A stretch of 64,000 nt of DNA from Corallococcus macrosporus (GTDB lineage: Bacteria > Myxococcota > Myxococcia > Myxococcales > Myxococcaceae), in the NCBI RefSeq assembly GCF_017302985.1, contig NZ_JAFIMU010000007.1, forward strand, positions 2,929,001 through 2,993,000, read 5' to 3'. This document shows, piece after piece, positions 3,693 through 63,373 of this stretch (position 1 is its first letter; each line of letters opens with the position of its first letter). The notes under the pieces were generated by a model. That model was given only the letters and a program-made list of their open reading frames with translations. It did not search any database and was not told the DNA's origin. The position numbers and the translations under genes are program-made.

Positions 3693-4514
3693 ATGTCCAC
3701 GCTGCCGTTGTCCCCGCAGGTCCTGGCCATCCTCGCCATGCTCATCGAGCAGCGCTCGGGCCTGCATTACGGGCTCGAGGACCGGGAGCTGCTGGCGGAG
3801 AAGCTGTCCACCCGCGCGCTGGATGCCGGGTTCGACTCGTTGCTCGACTACTACTACTTCCTCCGCTACGACCCGAAGGGGCCGGAGGCGCTGGACTCGC
3901 TGGTGGAGGCGCTGCTCGTCCACGAGACGTACTTCTTCCGCGAGCCCCAGGCGCTGGAGGTGCTGGTGGACGAACTGCTGGTGCCGGAGGTCAAGGCCGG
4001 CCGCAAGCCCCGCGTCTGGTGCGCGGCGTGCGCCACCGGCGAGGAGCCCCTCACGCTGGCCATGCTGCTGGACGCGCGGGGCGTGCTGGGGAACGTGTCC
4101 ATCCTGGCCACGGACCTGAGCGCCCGGGCGCTGGAGCGCGCGCAGGCGGGGGAGTACAACCTGCGGTGCATGCGCGCGCTGCCCCCCGGCGTGCAGGGGC
4201 GCTGGCTGGACGTGGTGGACGGACGTCCGCGCGTGCGTCCAGACCTGATGGCCCGGGTGGAGTGGCGGCAGCTCAACCTGGTGGACACCGTGCACTTCCC
4301 GGAGCCGGAGAGCTGCGACGCCATCCTCTGCCGCAACGTGCTCATCTACTTCCAGGACGACACCGCACGCAGCGTGGTGGACAGCCTCACCCGCGTGCTG
4401 CGGCCCGGCGGGCACCTGGTGGTGGGCACCTCCGAATCGCTGATGCGTTTCGGCACGGCGCTGCACTGCGAGGAGCGCCGCGGCGCGTTCTTCTATAGTA
4501 AAGCGGGGCCATGA
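3693..4514 (+). CDS. cheR: CheR-type chemoreceptor glutamate methyltransferase
   Basis: Transfers methyl groups from S-adenosylmethionine to glutamates on chemoreceptors, setting adaptation. The 273-residue protein has the usual CheR layout: a helical N-terminal domain (about 1-75), then an AdoMet-binding Rossmann domain. The motif ACATGEEPLTLAM matches the SAM-binding glycine loop, and LCRNVLIYF is the CheR signature. There are no C-terminal TPRs, unlike the second CheR in this window. The ATG lies 14 bp after the HEAT gene, and the 3' end overlaps cheB by 4 bp (ATGA). It presumably acts on the MCP encoded two genes upstream. Confidence 0.95.
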   Translation: MSTLPLSPQVLAILAMLIEQRSGLHYGLEDRELLAEKLSTRALDAGFDSLLDYYYFLRYDPKGPEALDSLVEALLVHETYFFREPQALEVLVDELLVPEVKAGRKPRVWCAACATGEEPLTLAMLLDARGVLGNVSILATDLSARALERAQAGEYNLRCMRALPPGVQGRWLDVVDGRPRVRPDLMARVEWRQLNLVDTVHFPEPESCDAILCRNVLIYFQDDTARSVVDSLTRVLRPGGHLVVGTSESLMRFGTALHCEERRGAFFYSKAGP

Positions 4515-5542
4515 CCCTGCGCGTGCTGGTGGTGGATGACTCGGCATTCGCGCGCAAGGTGCTGCGCAAGGTGTTGTCGGACGCGCCGGGCCTGGAGGTG
4601 GTGGGCACCGCGCGCGACGGGCTGGACGCGCTGGAGCGCGTGGCGGAGCTCAAGCCGGACGTCATCACGCTGGACCTGGTGATGCCGTCGCTGGACGGGC
4701 CGGGCTTCCTGCGCGCGCTGGCGGGCATGCCGGGCGCGCCGCGCGTGGTGGTGGTGAGCAGCGCGGGCACGGACAGCGAGCTGGCGGTGGCCGCGCTCCA
4801 GGCGGGCGCGGTGGACCTGGTGCACAAGCCCACGGCGCTGGCCACCGACCGGCTCTACGAACTGGGCGCGGAGCTGGTGGAGAAGGTGCGCATCGCTGGC
4901 GGCGCGGTGCCGCACTACGCGACCGAGCAGGAGGCCGGCGCGAGCGCCCCGTCCGCGCGGCCGCTGCCCTCCTCGTCACAGAAGCTGCTGGCGGTGGGCA
5001 CGTCCACGGGCGGGCCGCAGGCGCTGACGCGGCTGCTGTCGGCGCTGCCCCGGGACTTCCCGGCGCCGGTGGTGCTCGCGCTGCACATCCCCGCCGGTTA
5101 CACGGAGGCCGTGGCGAAGCGGCTGGACTCGCAGAGCGCGCTGGAGGTGGTGGAGGCGAGCGACGGAATGGAGCTGGTGCCGGGCCGCGCGGTGCTGGCG
5201 CGCGCGGGGCACCACCTGAAAGTGGCGCGGCACGGGGCGCTGAACCTGGCGCGCCTGGACCGCCACCCGCTGGGCACCCCGCACCACCCCTCCGTGGACG
5301 TGCTCTTCCAGAGCGTGGCGGAGGTCTGGGGGAGGGATGCCCTGGGGCTGGTGCTCACCGGCATGGGCGAGGACGGCCTCCAGGGCGCGCGGGCCCTGCG
5401 CTCCGCGGGCGGCGTGGTGCTCACGGAGGCGGAGTCCTCGTGCGTGGTGTACGGCATGCCGCGCGCGGTGGCGGAGGCCGGCCTGTCCAACGGCAGCGCG
5501 CCCCTGGACGACCTGGTCCCGCTCATCTCGCGCTTCGTGTGA
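4511..5542 (+). CDS. cheB: CheB chemoreceptor methylesterase/response regulator
   Basis: Removes methyl groups (and deamidates glutamines) on chemoreceptors when phosphorylated by CheA. The 343 residues comprise an N-terminal receiver with the acidic pair in VVDDS and phospho-acceptor Asp in LDLVMPSLDG, a linker (about 140-160), and a C-terminal esterase domain. The catalytic triad is visible: Ser in GTSTGGPQAL, His in ALHIPAGYT and Asp in TGMGEDG. Its ATG overlaps the cheR stop by 4 bp. It is the last gene of the forward operon: a hairpin follows and the next gene converges. Confidence 0.95.
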   Translation: MTLRVLVVDDSAFARKVLRKVLSDAPGLEVVGTARDGLDALERVAELKPDVITLDLVMPSLDGPGFLRALAGMPGAPRVVVVSSAGTDSELAVAALQAGAVDLVHKPTALATDRLYELGAELVEKVRIAGGAVPHYATEQEAGASAPSARPLPSSSQKLLAVGTSTGGPQALTRLLSALPRDFPAPVVLALHIPAGYTEAVAKRLDSQSALEVVEASDGMELVPGRAVLARAGHHLKVARHGALNLARLDRHPLGTPHHPSVDVLFQSVAEVWGRDALGLVLTGMGEDGLQGARALRSAGGVVLTEAESSCVVYGMPRAVAEAGLSNGSAPLDDLVPLISRFV

Positions 5543-57587: not shown

Positions 57588-59054
57588 TCAACCTGCGCGC
57601 GGCAACGCCACGGTGAAGGTCGTGCCGGCGTCGGCCGTGGAGTGGACGACGACGCCGCCCCGGTGGGCTTCCAGGATGTGTTTCACGATGTAGAGCCCCA
57701 GGCCCACGTTGCCGCCGCGGAAGCTCGCGCCCTCGCCCTGGACGAAGGCCTCGAACATGCGCTCCTGTTCGTGCTGCGGGATGGGCACGCCCTCGTTGTG
57801 GACGGACACCGACACCGTGTCGGGGGCCGCGTCCAGGCGGATGGTCACCCGCGTTCCCTCCAGGCTGTGCTGCAAGGCATTGCGCACCAGGTTCGTGAGC
57901 AGCTGCGCCAGCCGGTCCGGATCCGCGTCCAGCCGCAGGTCCGCGGCGGGGGCGCGCACCACCCGCAGGTCGCGGTCGGGGACCGCCAGGGACACCTCGC
58001 CCATCACCTGCTCCGCGATGTGGCCCAGGTCGCACGGCGCGGGCGTCACGGGCAACAGCCCGCTGGTGCGCAGCCGCGTGTAGTCCAGCAGCTCGCCAAT
58101 GAGCCGCTCCGCGCGCTGGGCCGCCTGGCGCAGCCGCCGCAACAACTGCTGCTGCCGCTCCTCCAGCTTCGGCTGGCGCAAGAGCGACTCGGTGCTCAGC
58201 ACGATGGCGTTGACGGGGTTGCGCAGGTCGTGGCTCACCACCCCGAGCAGCTTCTCCCGCAGCTCCAGGGCCTCGCGCAGCTCGGTCTCCTGGAGGACCC
58301 GCTCGGTGAAGTCGGTGGCGGCGCCCACCAGCCCCTCCACGCGGCCGTCGCGGTCGCGCACCGGCTCGAGCGACAGCCAGTAGTGCCGCTCCTGTCCGTC
58401 CTGCACGATGCGCACCTGTCCGGCCGCGGGCTCGCCCTGCTCGAAGACCCGGTGCTTCAGCTGCACCACGTCCCCCAGCGTGCGCCGGTCCTGGAGGAGC
58501 TCCGCGTCGGTGTGGCCCACCAGCGCGGTGCCCGCGTCGTGCGGGTGCACCCAGGTGTAGCGCAGGTCCAGGTCCTGCTCGAAGACCATCACGGGCGCGC
58601 GCTGCAGGGACACCCGGAAGCGCTGCCGCTCATGCTCCAGCGTGCCCGTCTGGCGCTGGACGTAGGCGGTGACGCACTCGCAGACGGCATGGTCCAGCCA
58701 CTCGTGCAGCAGTGCCCAGCCGCCGGTGTCCGTGTGCGCCCGCACGTCGCTCAGCTCGCGCAGCAGCACCTGGCGCAGCCCCGCGTACTCCCGGGTGATG
58801 CGCTCCAGTGGAAGGCCCAGCCGCCAGCGCTGCAGCGCGTGCTCGCGCGCCGCGCGGCGGACGGGCTCCGGCTCGTTGCGCTCGCGCGCCTCCAGCGCCC
58901 CGGCCAGCTCCAGCAGCAGGCCGCGCAGCCCGTCGATGAGCACGTCGTCGGAGTGCTCCTGGTCGCCCGTCCGCTCCCGCTCCTGGACCAGCCACCGCTG
59001 CACGATGGGCTCACGCCGCGCGCGCAGCGCCTGCGCCAACAGCAGGCTGCTCAT
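57588..59054 (-). CDS. Sensor histidine kinase with RsbRD-type N-terminal domain and PAS
   Basis: 488 residues, soluble. A helical RsbRD-like N-terminal domain (about 1-145) is followed by PAS/PAC (about 150-270, ending LVGAATDFTER), HisKA (His in VVSHDLRNPVNAIVL) and HATPase (LLTNLVRNALQHS; VGLGLYIVKHIL). It ends a three-gene unit: KaiC-like ATPase, receiver, kinase, with a 4-bp overlap to the receiver gene. It should phosphorylate that receiver. Confidence 0.93.
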   Translation of the reverse strand: MSSLLLAQALRARREPIVQRWLVQERERTGDQEHSDDVLIDGLRGLLLELAGALEARERNEPEPVRRAAREHALQRWRLGLPLERITREYAGLRQVLLRELSDVRAHTDTGGWALLHEWLDHAVCECVTAYVQRQTGTLEHERQRFRVSLQRAPVMVFEQDLDLRYTWVHPHDAGTALVGHTDAELLQDRRTLGDVVQLKHRVFEQGEPAAGQVRIVQDGQERHYWLSLEPVRDRDGRVEGLVGAATDFTERVLQETELREALELREKLLGVVSHDLRNPVNAIVLSTESLLRQPKLEERQQQLLRRLRQAAQRAERLIGELLDYTRLRTSGLLPVTPAPCDLGHIAEQVMGEVSLAVPDRDLRVVRAPAADLRLDADPDRLAQLLTNLVRNALQHSLEGTRVTIRLDAAPDTVSVSVHNEGVPIPQHEQERMFEAFVQGEGASFRGGNVGLGLYIVKHILEAHRGGVVVHSTADAGTTFTVALPRAG

Positions 59055-59413
59055 CCCTCCGCACCCCCGAGCACGGACCTCACGGCCTTGACCAGGCCCT
59101 TCACCGTGACGGGCTTCTCCAGGAACGAGTGGACCTGCTGATCGCCCAGCGCCTTGCGGCTGGCGCTGGAGATGACCACCACCGGCAGCTCGCGCAGCCG
59201 GCCTTCGCCGCGCATCCGCGTGAGCAGCCCCCGGCCGTCCAGCAGCGGCAGCATCAGGTCCAGCATCAGCAGGTCGGGAGCGTCCCCCTCCAGCTTGCGC
59301 CACGCGTCCAGGCCGTTGCGGGCCACCTGCACGTCGAACCCCGCGTCCTGCAACACGTCCTGGATGGCGTCCGCCAGGGTCTCTTCATCCTCCACCACGA
59401 GGATGCGTGCCAT
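59051..59413 (-). CDS. Single-domain response regulator in the KaiC-like operon
   Basis: 120 residues of one receiver domain: VVEDEETLADAI acidic pair, phospho-acceptor Asp in LMLDLMLPLLDG, the VVISSASR position and EKPVTVKGLV Lys. It overlaps the kinase start by 4 bp and its own ATG overlaps the KaiC-like stop by 1 nt (TAATG), so the three proteins are made in coupled fashion. Confidence 0.95.
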   Translation of the reverse strand: MARILVVEDEETLADAIQDVLQDAGFDVQVARNGLDAWRKLEGDAPDLLMLDLMLPLLDGRGLLTRMRGEGRLRELPVVVISSASRKALGDQQVHSFLEKPVTVKGLVKAVRSVLGGAEG

Positions 59414-60933
59414 TACCTCTCCCCCCTGTCCGGTCCGCCGAGCCCGGGGCCGGGCGACACCGGGTGGCGGGAGGACGAGGACCGGTCCAGGGGCTGTCCG
59501 GTGAGGACGGCCTCCAGCGCCGTGTAGGACTCCCCGACGCGGGGACCCTCGTCGGTGATGCGCAGCTCGCGCAGGAACGGGTCGTTGGCGCTGTCGCGCA
59601 TCTTCAGCACGGTGATGAGCCGGTGCAGCTTCCCGTGCAGCTCGAAGAAGCGCAGGAAGACCAGGTTGTCGCAGATGGCCTCGATGCCGCGGATGGGCGA
59701 GTGCAGCTCGGGCCCGAACATGTCGTTCACCTGCTGGGTGATGAGCATGGTGACGTCGCGCTCGCGCAGGGCGTTGATGAGCGCCGCGAGGAAGCGGGTG
59801 GTGCGCTCCGGATCGATGGCCTCCTTGGCGAAGGGCTCCAGCCCATCCAGCACCAGCCGCTTCACCCCCTGCTCCTGGATGATGTGCATCAGCTCCTGGG
59901 CCATGGCGTCCGGGAGCGTCTCCACCGGCGCGCGCGCCTCCAGGCGCAGCAGCCCCTGGCGCTGCAGCGGTTCCAGGTCCAGCCCCACGTTGCGGCACTT
60001 CAGCGTGAGCTGCTCGCCGCTCTCCGCGAAGCCGAAGTAGAGCCCCGGCTCCCCCTTGAGCGCGCCCTCCATCAGGAACGACATGCCGATGAGCGTCTTG
60101 CCGCTGCCGGGGCTGCCCATCACCAGCGTGGAGGACAGGGTGACCAGGCCGCCGTAGCACATGGCGTCCAGCCCCTCGATGCCCCAGCGGCTGCGGTGGC
60201 GCGCGTCGGCCAGCTTGCGCGGGGTCTCCCGCATCACCGACTCGAAGCGCGGGTAGACGCGCACGCCATGCTCGTCGATGGTGAAGGTGTGGCGGCCCGG
60301 GACGTTGTTGCTGCCGCGGAACTTGGTGAGCTCGATGCCGCGCGTGGCCTTGAGGCCGATGAGGTCCGCGCTCAGGGCCACGATGCCGTCCACGACGGCG
60401 GCCTCCACGCTCACCCCCTTGTTCGTCTCGGTGCTCAGGAGCAGCACCGTGCAGTCCAGGGCGGCCAGCCGCACGTTGAGCGCCTGCAGGAGCTCGCGCA
60501 GGTCCTCGTCCGGGCGCAGCCGCTCCTTGAACACCGACAGGCCGTCCACGATGAGCACCCGCGCGTCGCGCTCCCGGACGGTGCGGATGAGCGTGTCGAC
60601 GAAGCCCTTGCCGCCCCCCTCGCGCAGCGCAGGCAGGCCGCTGATGTAGTGCACGTGGGTGCCGACGGCGTCCTTGTCGAAGAACCGGAACGAGCGCAGG
60701 TGCAGCAGCATGCGCTCGTGGGTCTCCGCGAGCAGCGTCACGTAGAGGGACGCGTCTCCGCCCTCCGCGCGCCGGAAGCACATCTCGTTGGCGAGCGTCG
60801 TCTTGCCGCTGCCCGGAGGCCCGGCGATGAGGTACAGCCCGCCACGCAGCCAGCCCCCATTCAGAATCACATCGAGGTGGGGCACTCCGCTCTTCAACCG
60901 TGCAGCGGCCTCCTCCTCCCGCTGTTCGTCCAT
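59413..60933 (-). CDS. KaiC-like double-domain ATPase
   Basis: 506 residues with two RecA/KaiC domains. Walker A motifs are GPPGSGKTT (38-46) and GSPGSGKTL. In cyanobacterial KaiC both domains carry a Glu pair after the second strand; here they read LLAETHE and FAESGEQ, so the first Glu of each pair is Ala. Aligning the C-terminal hallmark (VLKMRDSANDP; ITDEGPRVGESY) with clock KaiC places Glu-Ala at the Ser431-Thr432 phosphosites. No kaiA or kaiB is present. It is the first gene of an operon with a receiver and a kinase, suggesting a signalling role rather than a full clock. ATG at 60933 with GGGAGG upstream. Confidence 0.9.
   Translation of the reverse strand: MDEQREEEAAARLKSGVPHLDVILNGGWLRGGLYLIAGPPGSGKTTLANEMCFRRAEGGDASLYVTLLAETHERMLLHLRSFRFFDKDAVGTHVHYISGLPALREGGGKGFVDTLIRTVRERDARVLIVDGLSVFKERLRPDEDLRELLQALNVRLAALDCTVLLLSTETNKGVSVEAAVVDGIVALSADLIGLKATRGIELTKFRGSNNVPGRHTFTIDEHGVRVYPRFESVMRETPRKLADARHRSRWGIEGLDAMCYGGLVTLSSTLVMGSPGSGKTLIGMSFLMEGALKGEPGLYFGFAESGEQLTLKCRNVGLDLEPLQRQGLLRLEARAPVETLPDAMAQELMHIIQEQGVKRLVLDGLEPFAKEAIDPERTTRFLAALINALRERDVTMLITQQVNDMFGPELHSPIRGIEAICDNLVFLRFFELHGKLHRLITVLKMRDSANDPFLRELRITDEGPRVGESYTALEAVLTGQPLDRSSSSRHPVSPGPGLGGPDRGER

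Positions 60934-61108: not shown

Positions 61109-63373
<2,265 letters not shown>

Follow-up and report, generated by a model that had tools for sequence, protein, structure and literature searches.

A 64,000-nucleotide stretch of the Corallococcus macrosporus genome (contig NZ_JAFIMU010000007.1, positions 2,929,001 to 2,993,000 of the forward strand; hereafter the window) was analyzed for three overlapping minus-strand genes that encode a KaiC-like ATPase, a response regulator receiver and a histidine kinase. The genes are located in the window as follows.

59413 to 60933, minus strand: two-domain KaiC-like RecA-fold ATPase of 506 amino acids, assigned by PF06745, matches to KaiC entries of the PDB, an AlphaFold2 model and site tallies.

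59051 to 59413, minus strand: single-domain response regulator (receiver) of 120 amino acids, assigned by PF00072, its position 3' of the KaiC-like gene and its active site.

57588 to 59054, minus strand: histidine kinase of 488 amino acids with RsbRD_N, PAS_4, HisKA and HATPase_c domains by Pfam; absent from the orthologous loci.

The stop codon of the KaiC-like gene overlaps the receiver start as TAATG, and the receiver stop overlaps the kinase start as ATGA, exactly as a preliminary description of this DNA had read them. The range under which that description filed the three genes (59051 to 60933) spans the KaiC-like gene and the receiver and leaves the kinase outside. The 9.8 Mb genome contains five two-domain KaiC-like genes. 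The nearest named relative of the locus, in Corallococcus interemptor, is 83% identical and was the sole locus returned by a single-protein search of genome contigs.

The KaiC-like protein was matched by PF06745 in two stretches (3.2e-71), and its AlphaFold2 model (mean predicted local distance difference test score, pLDDT, 87.2) aligned with KaiC chains over about 450 to 480 residues, with Z scores of 36 to 38 for the best entries. The top Foldseek match of the model was the night-state entry 7s66, many KaiC entries scoring alike. In a HMMER alignment to PDB KaiC 8jon, whose numbering is that of Synechococcus elongatus plus 4, E418 was paired with Ser431 and A419 with Thr432, and the same pairing was obtained with MAFFT in both a 74-row and a 114-row set. 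The C-terminal offset between the predicted structure and the KaiC crystal chains is 13 (485 to 498), which brings residue 418 to 431 if there is no gap between. The equivalent of Thr426 is ambiguous by one residue, being P413 by HMMER, and MAFFT sets P413 on Asp427. The catalytic Glu pairs of the two domains read A69-E70 and A303-E304, the latter aligned by MAFFT with E318-E319; the second Glu is thus present in both domains, and each Walker A motif has its lysine intact (K44 and K279). The preliminary description, which had placed Glu-Ala at Ser431-Thr432 by hand alignment, read Ala-Glu at both Glu pairs and concluded that the clock phosphosites are missing, was right in all three respects, as neither alignment gives a Ser or Thr at the 431 or 432 position.

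Of the features that mark a clock KaiC, the protein has the two KaiC domains with Walker A motifs and the KaiC fold. It lacks Ser/Thr at 431 and 432 and lacks the first Glu of each catalytic pair; according to the available part of PMC5520375, both Glu of each pair are retained in all cyanobacterial KaiC subgroups. Its scores against the clock-KaiC equivalog models were below the cut-offs (TIGR02655, 153.6 bits versus 546.25; NF006799, 220.6 versus 408). Profile searches for KaiB (PF07689) and KaiA (PF07688) gave 0 matches across the whole genome, which is 99.99% complete, and both searches found Synechococcus elongatus as positive control, so that the earlier statement that no kaiA or kaiB is present extends to the genome. 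Judged from sequence, this protein would have lost the phosphorylation switch of KaiC itself, and its CII domain would not be an autokinase switch whether the acid at 418 is a phospho-mimic or a carboxylate moved from elsewhere.

The receiver encoded next to it was matched by PF00072 (1.2e-19), has an intact active site (E8-D9, D52, S82 and K100) and no output domain, and is therefore a single-domain response regulator. All 80 Myxococcota loci (40/40 in a first set and 40/40 in a second) have a receiver as the next same-strand gene downstream of KaiC; these loci were hand-picked from the better-scoring part of the listed matches, and five of them come from this genome, several genomes giving more than one. 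The same arrangement was observed in 9/9 plasmid loci of alpha- and betaproteobacteria, these being 9 of 20 listed matches from 286 records; the plasmid receivers were annotated as response regulator in seven cases and as hypothetical protein in one, and one was unannotated. Among the first 40 Myxococcota loci, the KaiC/receiver junction is ATGA in 26, TAATG in 1 (the window), GTGA or a similar contact in 8 and a short gap in 5. The acid pair, the Asp, the Thr/Ser and the Lys of the receiver active site are retained in 89/89 receivers, which argues that phosphorylation of the receiver matters and supports the receiver partner of the preliminary description. Eight of 97 rows were excluded from this count and from the receiver tree as broken or not of this family (the loci L092, L096, L099, L103, L108, L109, L115 and L116), and of these L108 and L116 lack active-site residues. 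The pairwise distances of KaiCs and of receivers were correlated (r = 0.85, 3916 pairs, shared ancestry uncorrected). Apart from kinase fusions in L041 and the distant L103, the receivers are free-standing and have no output domain. What is conserved as a unit is thus the pair of KaiC and receiver, not the trio.

Several loci have features of their own. The L078 receiver has a longer open tail, and in L092, a member of the same KaiC-receiver family, the receiver overlaps the KaiC frame. L092 belongs to 30 added loci (L090 to L119), of which L090 and L091 duplicate L078 and L079. In L108 and L116, the kinase encoded after a distant KaiC has an N-terminus that weakly resembles a receiver (18 and 21 bits, respectively) and is devoid of the active-site residues. 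On conjugative plasmids of Cupriavidus and Agrobacterium (L125 and L126), the KaiC-receiver pair lies within 5 kb of an nhaA antiporter gene.

The kinase did not share this conservation. The preliminary description had proposed a coupled set of three genes and had named conservation of the trio across Myxococcota as a check, and this linkage was not borne out: a kinase domain directly follows the receiver in 3 of the 80 Myxococcota loci (the window, the L041 fusion and L159/L169), in three different forms. The profile used was built from HisKA-type kinases and misses other types, such as the PAS protein that follows the L121 receiver, and L134, with only about 0.5 kb beyond KaiC, is too short to show a kinase. 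In four orthologous loci of the same genus, the KaiC-receiver pair is present in all and the kinase in none. The DNA alignment of these four loci to the window extends to the receiver end and resumes just past the kinase gene; in L047 and L048 the downstream homologous region directly follows the receiver with nothing between. A kinase match at 1e-70 was found in 1/16 genomes of the genus, the window's own, with none in the 15 others, and the best non-self match among 96 family genomes reached 227 bits with 44% identity over residues 150 to 487. No convincing kinase remnant was found in the same-genus slots, the best hint being a 39-base match in L046 (E value 6.6e-5). On these counts, a conserved KaiC-receiver-kinase trio was rejected. 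The kinase slot of L045 (about 4418 to 5211) and of L046 (about 4473 to 5256) holds related reading frames on the opposite strand, which look lipoprotein-like by eye.

The three kinases that do follow a receiver are unlike one another. The window kinase has no membrane segment by eye (no prediction made). In L041 (4744 to 5817), behind a paralogous KaiC of this same genome with Ala-Ile at the two sites, receiver and histidine kinase are encoded in one frame and the receiver active site is intact. In L159/L169 (L169, 3794 to 5224; genome G048), another kinase occupies the slot, with a hydrophobic N-terminus by eye and 30% identity to the window kinase over part of its length. Because these three arrangements among 80 loci differ from one another, kinases seem to have been added to the KaiC-receiver pair more than once. 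The L041 fusion, together with the two different kinases in the slot (window and L169), suggests that kinases dock at the receiver. One KaiC clade, in which the Ser431 position is Ala or Thr (L040, L162 to L165 and L167), has a same-strand kinase upstream of KaiC in 6/6 loci.

To place the acid at position 418, a KaiC tree of 102 rows was built without the site columns; it is a quick tree with flagged long branches, from which 12 of 114 rows were excluded as distant, broken or long-branched. In this tree, 46 myxobacterial KaiC proteins form one clade (Shimodaira-Hasegawa-like approximate likelihood ratio test, SH-aLRT, 99). Position 418 is acidic in every one of the 46 (44 Glu and 2 Asp), with the label changing once. 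The acid reported at Ser431 in the preliminary description is thus real, and it is fixed in a whole clade. The letters at 418-419 are EA in 35 members, EG in 4, DA, ES and EV in 2 each and ET in 1, and neither phosphosite position is Ser/Thr in 43/46. Forty more loci were added after the pattern had been noticed: 17 fell in the clade and were all acidic, and 23 fell outside, of which 0 were acidic. Ser occupies the Ser431 position in 33 of 44 sister KaiC-receiver proteins and in 16 of 24 other rows, and because Ser predominates in both groups, the change was likely from Ser to Glu. Some of the 44 sisters have two phosphosites, for example SS in L120. Among 19 columns with at least 60% Ser/Thr outside the clade, 418 alone turned acidic in the clade (first 29 members). 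An acid occurs a second time, apart from the clade, in L106, whose sites read Glu-Thr and which is absent from the 102-row tree; with L106 included, the acid label changes twice on a 66-row tree from which 8 rows were excluded as distant, broken or long-branched.

The first catalytic Glu is a different matter. Among 90 KaiC-receiver proteins (46 of the acid clade and 44 others), it is lost from CI in 90/90 and from CII in 89/90, indicating that this loss is a trait of the whole KaiC-receiver family and not a peculiarity of the window protein; the Ala-Glu pairs, which the preliminary description had read in it, were accordingly rejected as special evidence. In the acid clade, the second Glu is retained in both pairs, as are the Walker B aspartates and, apart from one Arg, the lysines of Walker A, and with these residues in place ATP binding and hydrolysis probably persist. 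Asp replaces the second CII Glu in 12/44 sisters. Since the sisters share both the pairing with a receiver and the loss of the first Glu, these two preceded the change from Ser431 to Glu.

Receiver-linked, phosphosite-poor KaiCs are already described, and the fixed acidic clade is what is new. In the available text of the Ramlibacter tataouinensis genome paper of 2011 (PMC3164672), a third ("black") kaiC context group is set apart in which kaiC is often followed by a receiver gene and the phosphosites are poorly conserved. The window protein agrees with this group in both respects, having a receiver gene after it (TAATG overlap) and no phosphosite where the group has one or none. The profile list of the group includes DY, so that an acid at the first site is tabulated there for at least one protein; the text available mentions neither a Glu-Ala clade nor its single change on a tree, nor that the first Glu is lost. 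The kaiC-Nt_HK pair of Ramlibacter, from the second context group of the same paper, resembles the window in that KaiC is encoded with a kinase and without KaiB. It differs in that a kinase with its own conserved N-terminal domain directly follows kaiC, whereas in the window the two are separated by an intact receiver gene of its own, and the kinase, of the RsbRD_N-PAS kind, is not conserved.

Myxobacterial KaiCs were surveyed by Graniczkowska et al. 2024 (PMC11832031), whose accessible text gives 1 to 7 KaiC per genome, no kaiA, few kaiB and fifty proteins without phosphosites. The window protein is of this phosphosite-free kind. An acidic replacement and a receiver partner go unmentioned in that text, which asks how phosphosite-free KaiCs act. 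The letters found in the window protein at E418, A419 and A303 are those of S431E/T432A, the night-state mimic of S. elongatus KaiC (PDB 7S65; PMC10076222, in the part available), and of the E318A mutant named in the title of PDB 4dug. The window KaiC differs from the S. elongatus protein in sharing about 25% identity with it, in coming from a genome in which no KaiA or KaiB was found and in being paired with a receiver gene. Literature searches by title and abstract, with subscription papers mostly outside their scope, returned no study testing a KaiC-receiver pair, and the available parts of PMC6627678 and PMC12288465 added nothing on mechanism.

On balance, and with some reservation, we favor a two-protein module consisting of a KaiC-type ring ATPase and a dedicated phosphorylatable receiver, which would work as a switch driven by receiver phosphate and not as a clock. 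In the scheme envisaged, the permanent acid at Ser431 together with the lost first Glu of CII would likely hold the CII ring in a phospho-Ser431-like (night) state, and the reversible phosphate would be located on the receiver instead of on KaiC. A histidine kinase, here perhaps the newly added neighbor and in other species other kinases, would phosphorylate the receiver, and the phosphorylated receiver would bind KaiC and alter its ATPase state or its partners, a stimulus thereby driving the module as a switch. We infer that KaiC would form a hexamer, that the receiver would bind it, that the signal would run from kinase to receiver to KaiC and that the ring would be locked in a night-like state. 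The narrower proposal that the clade evolved a fixed night-state mimic (Glu for Ser431, mostly Ala for Thr432, and loss of E318) and handed the reversible phosphate to its partner receiver is offered only tentatively, and we hold it to be somewhat doubtful.

Several observations weigh against the module and its fixed mimic. The KaiC tree is quick and has flagged long branches, and the receiver tree, which is poorly resolved, shows two changes of the acid label. The sisters that keep Ser431 (33/44) also have the receiver and have also lost the first Glu, so that the receiver alone does not explain the acid. More distant KaiCs of the phylum (L093 to L119) mostly have no such receiver directly downstream, and many have a kinase there. 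Furthermore, residues 303, 401 and 418, the equivalents of E318, Thr415 and Ser431, differ jointly between the acid clade and its sisters: position 401 is Glu in 44/44 sisters and Gln in 37/46 of the clade, and position 303 is aromatic in 44/44 sisters and in 1/46 of the clade, where it is mostly small or aliphatic. These shifts fit a rebuilt interface as well as they fit a phospho-mimic.

The same shifts, and further CII columns that differ between the two groups, also fit a relocated carboxylate, the acid moving from the Thr415 to the Ser431 position as the E318 position shrank. At the CII subunit interface, E418 would then serve as a carboxylate with either a structural or a trans-acting catalytic role. 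The exchange is not strictly exclusive, as E401 occurs together with E418 in 3/46 clade members, and the acid landed exactly on the clock phosphosite column and on no other column dominated by Ser/Thr. We regard such a relocation as a serious possibility, though short of a likely one.

Cyanobacterial KaiC acts on SasA and CikA. By analogy the signal might run in reverse, with the KaiC ring as a sensor (for example of ATP/ADP) that controls phosphorylation of the receiver, which would in turn act on kinases or other targets. This direction is consistent with the receiver-kinase fusions of L041, behind a paralogous KaiC of this genome, and of the distant L103, and also with the kinases with degenerate receiver-like N-termini behind distant KaiCs in L108 and L116, which recall the Nt_HK group in the available text of PMC3164672. 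However, the receiver has no output domain, and no kinase directly follows it in 76 of the 79 loci that are long enough, as judged with the HisKA-type profile that misses other kinase types. A reversed signal is accordingly considered rather unlikely.

An hourglass timer built on KaiC, running on a different phosphosite or on ATPase cycling alone, would be compatible with the Walker A lysine and second Glu present in both domains, and rhythmic fruiting rings are reported for Myxococcus macrosporus, whose kaiC genes are unstudied (PMC11832031, available text). It is nevertheless highly improbable given that the genome searches found neither KaiA nor KaiB, that the first Glu is lost in both domains, that there is no Ser/Thr at the two sites and that the scores lie far under the curated clock-KaiC cut-offs. 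Adjacency is no proof of interaction, and the receiver could in principle be a mere passenger gene with an unrelated target, which is very unlikely given that the two genes are adjacent in 89/89 family loci, drawn from two phyla and including several paralogues, and that their distances are correlated.

Many non-cyanobacterial bacteria have KaiCs without the parts of a clock, and the action of the phosphosite-free ones is an open question in print (PMC11832031, in the text available). The present case makes that question testable, because a receiver partner is present in every family locus examined and the charge lies exactly at the night-mimic site. Should the receiver have assumed the switching role, KaiC would be a ring ATPase of general use, coupled in different lineages to different phosphate signals. 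If the fixed mimic is the true reading, a clock-type protein would have become a receiver-driven switch through the movement of a phosphorylation site from one protein to another.

Upstream of the KaiC-like gene and on the same strand, positions 61109 to 63373 encode a protein with a CBM56 domain and a di-haem oxidoreductase (DHOR) part.

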